A stretch of DNA of 64,000 nt from Bernardetiaceae bacterium (GTDB taxonomy: Bacteria > Bacteroidota > Bacteroidia > Cytophagales > Thermoflexibacteraceae), in assembly GCA_025056255.1 (NCBI GenBank), contig JANWVT010000013.1, positions 1-64,000 of the forward strand, read 5' to 3'. A program made the position numbers and the translations under genes. How positions within the stretch are numbered: the first letter of the stretch is position 1; each line of letters opens with the position of its first letter. Of the stretch, positions 11,204-43,209 are shown piece by piece. The notes beneath the pieces were generated by a model, which was given only the letters and a program-made list of their open reading frames with translations, had not been told where the DNA came from and made no database searches.

Positions 11204-14200
11204 ATGAGATATCGTATTGGTTTGTTGTGCTGTTTGTTCTTCTATGTTGATTTAGCTTTTGCTCAGCCGCTTGCTCAAAATCCAACATACAAATTGGCTA
11301 TCCCCAAAACAGGCATTTACCGTATCAACAGGTCTTTGTTGAGGGAAATGGGTGTCAATCCAGAGGAAATTGACCCACGTCGTATTCGCATATGGAGTGC
11401 AGAAGGAGGCATGCTACCACAAGCCAATAGTGCGCCTCGAAGCGGGTTAGTAGAATTACCTATTTACGTACAGGGAGAGCAAGATGGCAGGTTTGATGCC
11501 AATGATTTTATTGTGTTTTACGCCCAAGGAGCAGACAAAATATGGCCAGACGCTGCTCGTAGGCAAATTAGGCATGAAAAAAATCTTTACGACGACTACA
11601 ACTACTGCTTTTTGAGTATTGATGCTACCAACGGGAAACGCATCAGCCAACAAAGCCTTGTTCCAGAAACGAATGCAGTTATCTCCGATTTTCAGACTTT
11701 TTTTTATCATGAGAAAGACGATTTTAACTTGGTGAGCTCTGGTAGGCGCTGGTTTGGCGAACGTTTCGACATAGTGAACGAACATACAATCCGTTTTCCT
11801 GCAAACGGCTGGATTTCAGGCACAAGTATACAGATACAATCGGCAGTAATGGCGCAGTCTGTCAGCCCAACTACTTTTAGTTGGCAGCTCAACGGACAAG
11901 ACCTTGGCAGTCGGCAAATGGCAGTGGTGCCTGCCGGTACGTACGCGCGCCGAGGAACCATTGCTGAGGTGGCTTTTAGCCTTATTCCTACTCTGCCTGC
12001 CGGTACCAATGAGTTTGTTGTGCGCATACGCTACGACAGAGCAGGCAACCACGCTGCATTTGGACATTTAGACTACCTCACCCTCAGCTATCAGCGTCGG
12101 CTACAACTTTATGAAAACCCCACCCTCTTCCGTTCGTTTGCAGCCACCGAGCAAACCACTAATACTTTTCGCATAGCAGCTGCCACAGCCGACTTACAGG
12201 TATGGGATATCACTGATGTTGCCAGTCCGCAAGTAATGAGGATGCGCTTTTCGGGCAATGAGGCATTTTTCAGTGCTGCCAATCCACAGCGGCAACTGCG
12301 CGAGTATGCCATTTTTCGCACCGAAGGACTACCTGAACCTCGCTTTGTGGGCATTGTAGCCCCACAAAACTTGCGAGAGACAACGCCACGCCCCGAGTTG
12401 CTCATAGTGGCAGCCCCTCCTTTTCTGCCAGCTGCTCAGCGGCTTGCCGAGTTTCGCCGCCAACACGACGGCTTGCAAGTGGAAGTAGTCAGCACAGAGC
12501 AAGTGTACAATGAGTTTTCTTCTGGTCGGAAAGACCTCACAGCCATCCGCGACTTTGTTCGCCACCGCTATTTACAACCCCAAAGCCAGCTACAATACCT
12601 GTTGCTTTTTGGGGATGCCTCCTACGATTACAAAGACCGAACCCCTAACAATACTAACTTTGTTCCAGTTTACCAGTCTTACGAATCGCTGCACCCCATT
12701 TTCAGCTTTTCATCCGACGATTACTTTGGCTTTTTAGACGAACACGAAGGAACTTGGGAAGAAGATTTTGGCGGGGCGTATAATCTGGAAATTGGTATAG
12801 GGCGTTTACCTGTTAAAACGGCACGCGAGGCAGCAGCAGTAGTAGATAAACTCATTTACTACACTACTGCTGCTACACTAGGAGAGTGGAGAAGGCGGAT
12901 TGTATTTGTAGCCGATGACGGTGATTTTAATGTTCACCTTACCGATAGTGAACAACTTTCTACCCTTGTACAACAACGTAGCCCCAGTAGCCAAATTAAA
13001 AAAATTTACATAGATGCTTTCCCGCAAGTAGCTACTCCTACAGGAAGGCGCTCCCCTCAGGCACGCGAGGCACTCAACCGGCAAATAGCAGAGGGCGCTC
13101 TAATTGTCAATTATACCGGTCATGGTTCAGAAACAGGCTGGGCTTCAGAAGCAATTTTGGATGTTGTTTCCATTAACAACTGGACTAACTACGACCGTCT
13201 GCCTTTAATGATAACAGCTACTTGCGAATTTGGGCGGTATGACAACCCTTTTCTCACTTCCGGCGCAGAGTATGCCCTACTCAATCCGCGCGGCGGTGCT
13301 ATTGCCTTGATAACCACTACGCGACCCGTTTTTTCCAGCACCAATTTTATCTTAAACGAAGCATTCTACAAAGCAGTATTTGCCTCTATCAATGGTCGGA
13401 TGCCTCGTTTAGGCGACATACAACGGCAAACCAAAAACAACAGCATCAATGGCGTAGTCAATCGAAATTTTGCCTTATTAGGCGACCCCTCGATGCAATT
13501 AGCCTTACCTCAACAACAAATAACTTTTACTAATGCTCCAGATACACTCAAAGCACTGGCTAATGTTGTATTGACTGGCGAAGTGCAACAGCAAGGCAAT
13601 TTAGACGCCAACTTCAATGGCTTGCTGCAAATAGAAGTAATGGACAAAGAGTTTGAAATGCAGACGCTTGGCGACGAGGATGCGCCTGCAATGTATCGAG
13701 ACCGTCCTTCTGTTTTATTTCGCGGTTTGGCAAGCGTGCGGCAAGGGCGCTTCTCTGTGCAGTTTACTGTGCCCAAAAACATCAACTATGTTTGGGGGAA
13801 GGGTAAAATTTATGCTTATGCCATGGATAATAACCGCAATGCAGATGCAGCCGGAGTATGGGATGCCATAGTAGGTGGCACCACGACTAACATCATACCC
13901 GACAATACCCCGCCTCAGATACGCCTTTTTATGGATAGCGAACAGTTCCAAAATGGAGGCTCAACTCGACCCGACACTGAACTATTAGCTTTTTTCCAAG
14001 ATGATACCGGCATTAATATTAGCCGTACAGGTATTGGGCACGATATTGTGGCTACCTTAGATGAGCGTCAAACTTTTATACTGAATGATTTGTATGGCGC
14101 CGATATAGATAACCCAAGAAAAGGCAGCTTGCGACTCCCTCTGAAAGGACTTGAAAAAGGTGAGCATCGTATCCATGTAAAAGCGTGGGACTTGCACAAC

Positions 14201-39605: not shown

Positions 39606-42050
39606 TCAGGACAAATAATTAGCAATGCGAATTAAGTCGGCAAATACGCCCGCTGCCGTTACCTCTGCTCCTGCGCCCGAGCCTTTCACCACCATTGGGC
39701 GCTCCGGATAACGAACGGTTGTAAAGGCAATAATATTGTCTGAGCCGGAGAGTGAAGCAAAAGGATGTTCTTGCCCAACAGCATCAAGAGAAATGGTAGC
39801 TTTTCCGTCTTCAAAACGGGCGATGCAGCGCAATTTTTCGCCTTTTTCAGCAGCTTGTTGGCGCATACGCTCAAAGTGAGCATCATAAGTTTCCAACACT
39901 TGGAAAAACTCCTCTACGGTTGGGGCATCCATGCAAGGTTGGGGCAAAAACCCGTTAATAGTAATATCTTCAAACTCCATGGCATAGCCACATTCGCGTG
40001 CCAGAATGAGAATTTTGCGTCCTACGTCTTTGCAACTCAGGTCTTCACGCGGGTCGGGTTCGGTATAGCCTTTTTGCTTAGCTTCTTTCACTACTTGGCT
40101 AAAAGGTACTGAGCCATCGAAAGTGTTGAAAATATAAGATAATGTGCCGGATAGCACTGCCTCTATGCGAATAATTTTATCGCCGCTGTTGATTAAGTCG
40201 CGCAAAGTGCTAATGACAGGTAGCGCCGCTCCTACATTGGTTTCATAAAGCATGATAACACCGTGCTGCTTAGCAAGGCGCCGATTGCGAATGTATTGTT
40301 CATAACTGCTTGAAGAGGCAATTTTATTAGGTGTAACGATTGAAATACTGGCTTTGAGAATTTCGTCGTATGTGTTAGCAACTACCGCACTGGCAGTATT
40401 ATCTACAAACACCGAATTGGCAAGATTGATTTCATTCATTTGCTTAACAAACTCATGAATATCAGAAGGCACACCGCCTTCCAGCTCTTCGCGCCATTGC
40501 TCAATTGAAATGCCGTTTTCTTTGAACAACATTTTGCGGCTATTGGCAAGTCCCACAATGCGAAACTCAAGGTTGTATTCTTGTCTGAGATAGTCGCGCT
40601 GGGCTTGCATTTGTTTGAGCAAGGTACTACCGATTAGCCCTGTACCTGCCATAAAAATATTGAGCACTTTTGTGTCCGACTCAAAGAATGCTTGGTGCAA
40701 TGCTCGGAGAGCTTTCACTTCATCTGCCTTACTAATAACGGCTGAGATGTTCAGCTCCGAAGAACCTTGTGCAATAGCTACTACGTTGATACCGTTGCGT
40801 CCTAATGCTTGGAACATCCGCCCAGCAACGCCACTAGTGCGTCGCATATCTTTGCCTACAATGGCAATAATAGAAAGGTTGGTTTCTACAATTACCTCAT
40901 CCAGTAGTGCATTGCGAATTTCAAAGGCAAATTCTTTTTCGATGAGTTGCTTTGCAGTTGCCGATTCTTCGGGTTTTACAGCCAGACAAATGGAGTGTTC
41001 GGAAGAAGCTTGTGTGATGAGGATAACGCTAATTTTACCTGCTGCCAATGCACCAAACAAGCGGGCAGAAATACCAGCTACTCCTACCATACCACTTCCT
41101 TGTACACGCAACAGCGCAATATGGCTAATTGAAGTAATGCCTTTAATCGGGCGACCATTGTAGGCAGACTCTTTGCTAATGAAGGTGCCTTGAAAGTCGG
41201 TATTGAACGTATTGCGAATTACAATGGGAACATCTGCCTTCATGGCTGGTACCATTGTGGGAGGGTAAATAACTTTTGCCCCAAAATGCGACATTTCCAT
41301 AGCTTCCTCATAGGTCAGTGCCGGAATAGACTGAGCCTGCGGTACTTTACGCGGGTCGCAAGTCATCACCCCGTCCACGTCTGTCCAAATCTCGGCGACG
41401 GAAGCCTGCAAAGCTGCTGCAAAAATGGAGCATGTGTAATCCGAACCGCCGCGTCCCAATGTAACCGTATCGCCGTTAGGGGCGCTGCCAATAAATCCTG
41501 TAGCAATAATTAGTCCCGGGGTAGCCGCCACATATTCCTGAATTAGCGGATTGGTAGCTTCAAAATCAACAGTGGCATTGCCATAACGCCCGTCGGTTTT
41601 GATAACTTTGGTAGTATCCAAATACGTTGCCAGCAAGCCCTGTTCGCGTGCTGCCTCGCTGATGATAGTGCAGGAGAGTCGTTCGCCAAAACTCATGACG
41701 TAGTCCAATGCGCGCACACTCATTTCATTAAGCAGAAAAATGCCATTGAGTAGCTCTTCCAACTCGTTGAGCATAGCTTTTACTTTGGCGAGTGTGGCAC
41801 TTTGTTGGCGAACATCTATGAGTTCTTTTACACAGTCTAAGTGGCGTTTCTCAATATGGGCAAAAAGTGTTTTGTAATTTGTATCGTCGTTGGCGGCAGC
41901 TTTTGCCGTTGCAATGAGTTCATCGGTGATGCCTCCCAACGCCGAACATACTACTACTTTTGCTTCTGGGTCATTTTTGATAATGTTTACCACATGGCGG
42001 ATGCGCTCGGCATTTTGCACCGAAGAGCCTCCGAATTTTAGTACTTTCAT
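39606..42050 (-). CDS. thrA: Bifunctional aspartokinase / homoserine dehydrogenase
   Basis: An 814-residue fusion catalysing the first and third steps from aspartate to threonine and methionine. The kinase part (1 to about 300) starts MKVLKFGGSSVQN and has LGRGGSDYTCSI; two ACT-like regulatory units span about 310-460 (VGVAGISARLFGAL, VAGRMFQALGRNGIN); the dehydrogenase part (about 465 to end) begins IFMAGTGLIGSTLL and has PDPREDLSCKDVGRKILILAR-like spacing. The rest of the Thr operon (thrB, thrC) is not adjacent. The attenuator upstream suggests control by charged tRNA-Thr. Confidence 0.95.
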   Translation of the reverse strand: MKVLKFGGSSVQNAERIRHVVNIIKNDPEAKVVVCSALGGITDELIATAKAAANDDTNYKTLFAHIEKRHLDCVKELIDVRQQSATLAKVKAMLNELEELLNGIFLLNEMSVRALDYVMSFGERLSCTIISEAAREQGLLATYLDTTKVIKTDGRYGNATVDFEATNPLIQEYVAATPGLIIATGFIGSAPNGDTVTLGRGGSDYTCSIFAAALQASVAEIWTDVDGVMTCDPRKVPQAQSIPALTYEEAMEMSHFGAKVIYPPTMVPAMKADVPIVIRNTFNTDFQGTFISKESAYNGRPIKGITSISHIALLRVQGSGMVGVAGISARLFGALAAGKISVILITQASSEHSICLAVKPEESATAKQLIEKEFAFEIRNALLDEVIVETNLSIIAIVGKDMRRTSGVAGRMFQALGRNGINVVAIAQGSSELNISAVISKADEVKALRALHQAFFESDTKVLNIFMAGTGLIGSTLLKQMQAQRDYLRQEYNLEFRIVGLANSRKMLFKENGISIEQWREELEGGVPSDIHEFVKQMNEINLANSVFVDNTASAVVANTYDEILKASISIVTPNKIASSSSYEQYIRNRRLAKQHGVIMLYETNVGAALPVISTLRDLINSGDKIIRIEAVLSGTLSYIFNTFDGSVPFSQVVKEAKQKGYTEPDPREDLSCKDVGRKILILARECGYAMEFEDITINGFLPQPCMDAPTVEEFFQVLETYDAHFERMRQQAAEKGEKLRCIARFEDGKATISLDAVGQEHPFASLSGSDNIIAFTTVRYPERPMVVKGSGAGAEVTAAGVFADLIRIANYLS

Positions 42051-42073
42051 AATAGGTTTGGATGAGTGAGGTT

Positions 42074-42105
42074 AAAAACAATTCAGACACTTCTTGTGCC
42101 GTTGT
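42074..42105 (-). terminator. Attenuator terminator in front of thrA
   Basis: Minus strand: ACAA-C-GGCAC-loop AAGAA-GTGTC-TGAA-TTGT followed by TTTT. The inner five-pair stem (one G-T) and outer four-pair stem are separated by a small internal loop. It ends 24 bp before the thrA ATG, the right place for regulated termination. Confidence 0.55.
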
Positions 42106-42150
42106 CAAATAGCTACAAAACAGAAATAAGTTCGATACGAGTGTGTACAG

Positions 42151-42228
42151 TTAGCATGCCCCGAAGGGCATAGTGGTTGTCATGCCGCATGTGGTTGTGT
42201 TGTGAAAAGCAGCAATTATTGCGAACAT
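42151..42228 (-). CDS. Threonine-rich leader peptide of thrA
   Basis: ATG at 42228 to TAA at 42151, 25 codons. The product begins MFAIIAAFH, contains NTTTCGMTTTM and ends PFGAC: six Thr, three Met (with start) and two adjacent Ile in 25 residues. These are the amino acids made from the pathway that thrA opens. A hairpin overlaps its last codons and a terminator lies 45 bp further on, before thrA. This is the layout of ribosome-mediated attenuation as in the E. coli thr leader. The peptide is too short for a product of its own. Confidence 0.8.
   Translation of the reverse strand: MFAIIAAFHNTTTCGMTTTMPFGAC
42156..42171 (-). promoter_or_regulatory. Hairpin at the end of the leader peptide
   Basis: ATGCCC-TTCG-GGGCAT on the minus strand: a six-pair stem closed by a stable UUCG loop, over the last codons of the leader peptide. 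An alternative pairing of the upstream GGCAT (Gly-Met codons) with ATGCC exists, so ribosome position could choose between the two. Confidence 0.55.
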
Positions 42229-42254
42229 ACTGTACCGGTGTGGATAAGGCGTTG

Positions 42255-42262
42255 CAAAGCTA
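42255..42262 (-). promoter_or_regulatory. -7 box of the thrA leader transcript
   Basis: TAGCTTTG on the minus strand, 26 bp before the leader-peptide ATG. Upstream on that strand is a T-rich tract (CTTTTTTG) in place of a single well-placed TTTG. Confidence 0.5.
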
Positions 42263-42387
42263 TCAATAAAATTTTGCAAAAAAGAAAAAACCGAGTGGGT
42301 TTTATTGCAGTTTTATTTGTTGCCAGATTAACTCCGATGCAACAATTTTGCACAGAGATATTTCAATTACACTAAATCACTTGAATT

Positions 42388-43209
42388 ATGGGACAAATTC
42401 AATGGGAAACCATTAAGGAATACAAAGAAATTTTGTTCACCTACTACAATGGCATTGGCAAAATTAGCATCAATCGCCCGCATGTGCACAATGCCTTTAC
42501 GCCGCTAACAGTGCAAGAAATGATTGATGCTATGACGCACTGCCGCTACGACGACCGCATTGGTGTTGTTATTCTAACCGGTGAAGGCGGTAAAGCTTTT
42601 TGCAGTGGCGGCGACCAAAGCGTGCGCGGGCATGGTGGCTACGTAGGCGAAGATGGCGTACCGCGGCTTAACGTATTAGACTTGCAAAAGCTTATCCGAA
42701 GCATTCCCAAACCTGTCATTGCCATGGTAGCAGGCTGGGCAATTGGCGGCGGGCATGTGCTGCACGTAGTCTGTGACCTTACCATTGCTGCCGATAATGC
42801 CCGCTTCGGACAAACCGGACCGAAGGTAGGTAGCTTTGATGGTGGCTTTGGCGCCAGTTATCTGGCTCGCATTGTTGGGCAGAAAAAAGCCCGCGAAATT
42901 TGGTATCTATGCGACCAGTACGATGCACAAGAAGCCCTGCAAATGGGCTTGGTGAACAAAGTGGTGCCGTTGGAAAAGTTGGAAGAAGAAACAGTAGCTT
43001 GGTGTAACAAAATCTTGGAAAAATCTCCGATTGCACTGCGCATGCTGAAAGCCTCTTTTAATGCCGAGCTAGACGGACAGGCAGGCATTCAAGAACTGGC
43101 AGGTAATGCCACCCTACTCTACTACCTGACCGACGAAGCCAAAGAAGGTAAAAATGCTTTCTTAGAAAAACGCAAGCCCGACTTTAGCAAGTTTCCTAAG
43201 TTTCCGTAA
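42388..43209 (+). CDS. menB: 1,4-Dihydroxy-2-naphthoyl-CoA synthase
   Basis: A 273-residue crotonase-fold enzyme of menaquinone synthesis, closing the second ring of o-succinylbenzoyl-CoA. MenB hallmarks are present: [65 protein letters not shown] and the C-terminal [18 protein letters not shown]. These separate it from beta-oxidation hydratases. The other men genes are not in the window. Expected location is the cytoplasm, near the membrane. Confidence 0.95.

Follow-up and report, generated by a model that had tools for sequence, protein, structure and literature searches.

The window analysed here is a stretch of 64,000 nucleotides from a Bernardetiaceae bacterium (contig JANWVT010000013.1 of assembly GCA_025056255.1), and it carries on its minus strand a gene for a bifunctional aspartokinase/homoserine dehydrogenase. 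We take this gene to be thrA, the name given to it in the initial annotation. Upstream of it lies a short Thr-rich ORF that ends 100 nt before thrA and has a compact hairpin over its last codons. The features of the locus, in order of position, are as follows.

39606 to 42050, minus strand: thrA, bifunctional aspartokinase/homoserine dehydrogenase of 814 aa, with its ATG at 42050.
42073 to 42080, minus strand: TGTTTTTA, with a possible 8-position pairing to TGAAAGTA (42049-42042) at the thrA start; weak for the window alone.
42074 to 42100, minus strand: a proposed terminator made of GGCACAAGAAGTGTC (42100-42086) and a T-run (42078-42074); weak and unsupported.
42141 to 42145, minus strand: CACAC, by eye a degenerate counterpart of CATAC in G006 and G008 and of CATAT in other families.
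42151 to 42153, minus strand: leader stop codon TAA, just 3' of the P1 hairpin.
42151 to 42228, minus strand: leader ORF of 25 codons, MFAIIAAFHNTTTCGMTTTMPFGAC followed by the stop, whose core NTTTCGMTTTMP is kept in two relatives of the genus.
42155 to 42172, minus strand: P1 hairpin, TATGCCC-UUCG-GGGCATG, 7 bp, over the last leader codons.
42172 to 42180, minus strand: Thr codon run 2 (codons 17-19), from sequence and genus comparison.
42190 to 42198, minus strand: Thr codon run 1 (codons 11-13), from sequence and genus comparison.
42230 to 42235, minus strand: GTACAG, which may form an outer stem with CTGTAC (42150-42145); weak.
42255 to 42280, minus strand: promoter-like element, TTTG (42280-42277) plus TAGCTTTG (42262-42255), nearly invariant in all four genomes of the genus.

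The box, the 25-codon ORF, the two Thr runs and the UUCG-capped hairpin described in the initial annotation are all present on the minus strand. TAnnTTTG has been reported as the sigma-A consensus of Flavobacterium psychrophilum (PMC9723704). Across the thrA promoter, at 42388-43209 on the plus strand, lies a divergent gene that is MenB/enoyl-CoA hydratase-like by eye, which may mean that the two genes share the conserved AT-rich block.

The leader ORF in the window is real. Among the 777 small ORFs (ATG-started, 8-60 codons) within the window, only two contain two TTT runs: the leader itself and an ORF near 11484 on the plus strand (MAGLMPM...IFTTTTTTAF). In 672 kb of loci, many of them picked for carrying thrA, 6 of 6459 small ORFs have two such runs, and five of these six are thrA leaders. 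Within the genus, four genomes were compared, i.e., the window's own, G006, G007 and G008. The leader peptides of G006 and G008 read MFVIVVSLYNTTTCGMTTTMP and MFVTVVSLYNTTTCGMTTTMP, and their core (codons 10-21) differs from that of the window by three synonymous and no nonsynonymous changes. All three would be synonymous by chance with a probability of 0.011 in a simple simulation, and they are common to G006 and G008, so they count as one comparison. In codons 1-9, G006 differs from the window by one synonymous and seven nonsynonymous changes (7/8). This pattern of substitutions suggests that the Thr core is under purifying selection.

Conservation in relatives, which had been put forward as a check on the leader, is only partial: the core is kept in two relatives, whereas one of the four genus genomes lacks the Thr runs and none of the nine other family genomes has an ORF with four or more Thr among its 14 final codons. 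The exception in the genus is G007 (L080), where P1 is kept, but the peptide read from the sequence, MFLPISSPHSTRAIFQQTFMP, contains only two Thr codons. Since G007 is without Thr runs and the count in the rest of the family is 0/9, the Thr leader is either young within the family or often lost. The initial annotation had also matched the codons of the peptide to three products of the pathway, which holds for Thr and fails for Ile; Met is conserved, yet one Met codon falls inside an arm of the hairpin. Ile as a signal was rejected because codons 4-5 encode II, IV and TV in three genomes.

How widespread such leaders might be was determined by counting Thr codons at the ends of ORFs in 162 thrA upstream regions (4 from the genus, 9 from the family, 57 from the order, 33 from the class and 59 named loci). 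At least five Thr in the last 14 codons were found in 26/162 regions on the forward strand and in 0/162 on the reverse strand, and at least six in 16 vs. 0, while the largest forward excess among the other 19 residues was for Lys, with 8 vs. 1. At least five Thr were also found in 28/69 thrA upstream regions of f19, a neighbouring family, and in 7/25 of family f12. The sequences in these counts are related, so trials are not independent. The set of 162 excludes partial or weak loci (L055, L057, L061, L062, L076 and L077), loci with too little upstream sequence (L028 and L072), loci taken to come from genomes already listed under a G number (L003-L006 and L030) and duplicates (L056, L063 and L070). 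Genomes were used only if they had a ThrA match at the set E-value, which was the case for 68/148 in the order, 39/198 in the class and 65/78 in f19. For f12, 25 new loci came from 58 places, and the f19 set omits place G393:C96. The proposal that a Thr-codon leader peptide belongs to thrA is thus supported, with a core that changes only synonymously in two relatives and leaders that recur in other families. Three loci titled Patescibacteria, Peregrinibacteria and Gracilibacteria (L032, L051 and L054) encode ThrA proteins 48-53% identical to that of the window and have Thr-rich leader ORFs, with strong terminators in L032 and L054; transfer or wrong binning could be their source.

Other amino acid genes were inspected as well. 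In f19, 17/30 ilvD upstream regions have an ORF end holding at least eight Ile/Leu/Val in 16 codons. Read by eye, such Ile/Leu/Val-rich ilvD leaders in a relative family suggest that this type of control is part of the repertoire of the order. Five of these regions (L349, L350, L367, L370 and L371) show an Ile/Leu/Val-rich ORF and then a hairpin, and are apparent ilv attenuators; a T-run is visible in L349, L350 and L367, while the stretches shown for L370 and L371 end too early. A leader scan upstream of hisG, leuA and thrC found none in the four genus genomes, and leuA appears by eye to be inside an operon, so its upstream region is no fair test.

The second conserved component of the leader is P1, identified by both sequence and energy as a hairpin that covers the last part of the leader ORF. 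Its loop contains the leader stop codon in the three relatives of the genus (CATGCCC-TAAG-GGGCATG in G006 and G008), and in the window the stop is just 3' of P1. Stop-codon hairpins recur in other families with letters that vary by family: ACGGG-GTAA-CCCGT in f19, CCCGG-TAA-CCGGG in f12, CAACCCT-TTAG-GGGGTTG in f4, ACCCC-TTA-GGGGT in f74 and AACCCC-ATAA-GGGGTT in f56. A stop in or across a tight loop with a stem score of at least 14 was found in 11/26 leaders, vs. 6.5% of 2375 control stops. In this test, the leader of the window scores 0 because its stop follows the hairpin, a layout also found in part of f12, where L280 reads TACCCC-TTCG-GGGGTA and then TAG, with the TTCG loop of the window. 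Classical attenuators, too, can have a stop codon within their first hairpin, so this feature is not new by itself.

The possible outer stem is GTATAG/CTATAC in G006 and G008, which amounts to one compensatory change in few sequences, and it is missing from the best fold of a longer window transcript. The consensus fold of the four genus sequences, too few for firm conclusions, consists mainly of P1 and the outer stem, and the fold of the whole window leader does not stand out from those of shuffled sequences (z of 0.30, and 1.22 for its 3' part).

The biosynthetic gene is thus preceded by a small ORF with many codons for the amino acid being made, as in an attenuator. On the strength of this layout and of its counterparts in relatives, we consider that the window element is probably a leader-peptide control of thrA reading charged tRNA-Thr, with the Thr-rich peptide gene as the likely gauge of threonine, similar to the arrangement in E. 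coli. P1 would be the structure that senses the position of the ribosome. When Thr is plentiful, the ribosome would reach the stop codon and leave, P1 would refold behind the transcribing polymerase, and thrA would be held back. Under Thr shortage, the ribosome would stall on the Thr codons and cover the 5' arm of P1, which would block P1 and allow thrA to be expressed. The output might be a polymerase pause some 8-10 nt past P1 with subsequent factor-dependent release, which we regard as likelier than intrinsic termination.

The main rival to a pause/release output is masking of the thrA start, where a working leader peptide would act on thrA translation or mRNA stability through a conserved U-run that pairs with the start codon. 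The genus has a conserved U-run near -30, and in the predicted ensembles of all four genomes the U and the G of the thrA ATG have a pairing probability of 0.75-0.99. The U-run can pair with UGAAAGUA over 8 positions in the window, G006 and G008, a pairing also present in their consensus fold, and with GAAAGU over 6 positions in G007. Together with the lack of a canonical terminator in the window, this means that a translational output remains a candidate. However, 63 of 158 other thrA upstream regions have a match as good as those of the window and G007, which are commonplace because U-rich stretches often match GAAAG; only the G006/G008 match, reached by 5 of the 158, is unusual. In addition, the best fold of a longer window transcript pairs the start with the leader start rather than with the U-run. 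We consider an output through masking of the start rather unlikely.

A classical attenuator of the type proposed in the initial annotation, relying on an intrinsic terminator at 42100-42074, is distinctly improbable for the window, although a hairpin and a T-run do stand there in the right order. GGCACAAGAAGTGTC (42100-42086) forms five pairs with an energy of -4.1 kcal/mol, or -5.9 kcal/mol in a longer two-bulge form that uses part of the T-run. The T-run (42078-42074) begins 7 nt past the 5-bp stem, and terminator-like sites occur at chance rate in our scan (1 observed vs. 0.6 expected). The U-tailed terminator is thus not upheld, and a terminator scan of the window's own leader found none, while the hairpin adjoining the 3' end of thrA itself reaches -16.0 kcal/mol. 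What else speaks for this alternative comes from other leaders. Terminators of -10 kcal/mol or below, unmatched by any of 15 shuffles, were found in 12/26 thrA leaders, among them L078 (G006), from the window's own genus, at -15.5 kcal/mol. Moreover, G006 and G008 carry a hairpin of -12.5 to -13.2 kcal/mol at a similar place, but it is followed by UUGUUAAAC rather than by a U-run, and G008 reaches only -6.2 kcal/mol in the terminator scan. By eye, L007, L010, L017, L032, L053 and L064 have a common terminator form, ACCGACTTCAG...GTCGGTTTT, and these are perhaps a second conserved family of thrA leaders.

Finally, it is very improbable that the ORF is Thr-rich by chance and simply overlies a structured 5' UTR. 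Even if the genus is represented by only four genomes, one of them without Thr runs, and the fold is not above shuffles, the ORFs with at least five Thr in the 162 upstream regions are confined to the forward strand, the core changes are synonymous and five of the six two-run small ORFs in the 672 kb precede thrA.

Leader-peptide control reading charged tRNA-Thr is thus the reading that we prefer, and the leaders of f19 offer a glimpse of the form that it might take in the absence of a terminator. Their order is P1, CATAT plus a few letters and CC, a second hairpin and thrA, and P1 with CATAT at a set distance is also scattered among other families. CATAT is the most enriched five-letter word after leader stops, with 36/83 leaders vs. 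6/164 control windows placed at -105 from thrA (Fisher 2e-14, related sequences; words present in at least six leaders were tested). The 83 leaders are those of 247 deduplicated upstream regions that have at least four Thr, a threshold that admits some chance ORFs. When 37 leaders with CATAT within 57 nt were considered, 23 have it 13-17 nt past the stop, while in 8 it is 5-6 nt past a stop that itself follows the hairpin. The distance from hairpin to CATAT is 8 nt in 8 of 14 leaders measured. Leaders with CATAT mostly have no intrinsic terminator: among those with at least four Thr (n = 83), a strong one was found in 3/36 with CATAT vs. 27/47 without (Fisher 2.5e-6, related sequences, a contrast noticed after looking at the data). 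The three exceptions are L307, L269 and L078, and in L078 CATAT is at 37 nt, outside the usual distance. In f19 ilvD leaders, CATAT is rare rather than absent, since it occurs no more than 45 nt from the stop in 2/17, with L350 at 17 nt. The window leader has neither CATAT nor a convincing terminator. By eye, the counterpart of CATAT in the genus is CATAC in G006 and G008, GATAT in G007 and CACAC in the window, and kinship of the genus element to the f19 element is possible.

We built a covariance model, R1, comprising P1, CATAT and P2, from 18 f19 leaders. R1 matches more f19 leaders and the f4 leaders L131 and L132 (E of 5e-5), and weakly f12 (E of at least 0.01) and f74 (0.12 and 0.24). L156 and L164, also f4 leaders, were not recognised. 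With filters off, it found no leader match in the four genus loci, the window included. Over 41 f19 genomes, with 113 candidates scored per genome, R1 gave 51 matches at E of 1 or below. The 11 matches below 2e-6 are all just upstream of thrA, 9 of them being sequences used to build R1, and there is no strong match away from thrA in these genomes. Weak hits in f19 (E of 0.002-0.2) were taken as chance, because no Thr leader is present at any of the 11 such loci that were inspected. From a MAFFT alignment of 27 f19 sequences, RNAalifold recovered only three P1 pairs. In the unfitted alignment A2 the pair count is weak, with the covariation score matched by 126/500 shuffles and further pair types by 492/500, and in the model-fitted alignment A3, which leans towards structure, 0/500 shuffles reach the pair count. 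By eye, the second hairpin could pair with the CC that follows CATAT or with the GGGG of P1, but we do not rely on this. In L131 and L132 (f4, genus g29), the leader element is about 700 nt upstream of thrA, and in L131 the Thr/Ile-rich leader precedes another gene, itself before thrA, so this leader may control a two-gene unit.

We tentatively suggest, as a scheme somewhat more doubtful than not, that the thrA leaders of the order are of two kinds, one with a textbook terminator and one with P1 and CATAT at a set distance and no terminator, the window's genus being a divergent member of the second kind. The latter might rely on a hairpin-stabilised polymerase pause that feeds factor-dependent release.

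The best-known relative in function is the thr operon leader of E. coli and other gamma-proteobacteria (Thr_leader, RF00506, in Rfam and Leader_Thr in Pfam), which likewise has a Thr-rich leader ORF directly before thrA. In contrast to it, the window has no convincing terminator and no conserved Ile codons, and thrC is on another contig. Rfam Thr_leader gave no match in the window at gathering score and none at E of 1 or below in 42020-42300. None of two peptides matched the Thr leader peptide HMMs of NCBIfam and Pfam, which is weak evidence with such very short queries. There is no Rfam match in the window to a T-box or metabolite riboswitch, and no Rfam match in 10 leader loci tried (eight f19 and two f12). 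The idea that the same control was built here with unrelated sequence is consistent with the lack of Rfam, Pfam and NCBIfam matches, but the window is not a one-off, since such leaders recur elsewhere.

Closer comparisons can be made within and around the order. The f19 leader shares the Thr ORF, a compact stop-codon hairpin and, mostly, the lack of a canonical terminator, but R1 misses the window and its genus, and CATAT is degenerate in the window. Terminator-type thrA leaders (part of f12, f61 and Ignavibacteriales-type loci) likewise have a Thr-rich ORF before thrA, but no counterpart of their strong hairpin and U-run (-28.8 kcal/mol in G131 and -18.5 kcal/mol in L007) was found in the window. 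In the same phylum, F. psychrophilum is reported to show "strong clues" for leader-peptide attenuation before its amino acid operons (PMC9723704), Bacteroides thetaiotaomicron has small ORFs in 5' UTRs (PMC7366714), and the Bacteroid-trp RNA, RF01692, is listed in PMC2864571. These are likewise cases of, or candidates for, leader-type control of amino acid genes, and the passages concerned do not name a thrA leader. Among the literature matches listed, no title names a thrA leader in this phylum, and an earlier prediction is possible.

Taken together, leader-peptide attenuation is a kind of control already suggested for this phylum, and what appears to be new is a form that has P1 and CATAT but lacks an intrinsic terminator. 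The window's genus would at best be a divergent case of this form. If this is right, leader-peptide control of thrA would be common in the phylum, with one form working without an intrinsic terminator, and P1 plus CATAT would provide a defined element for testing ribosome-polymerase coupling in a group of bacteria that has seen little work on its transcription machinery.
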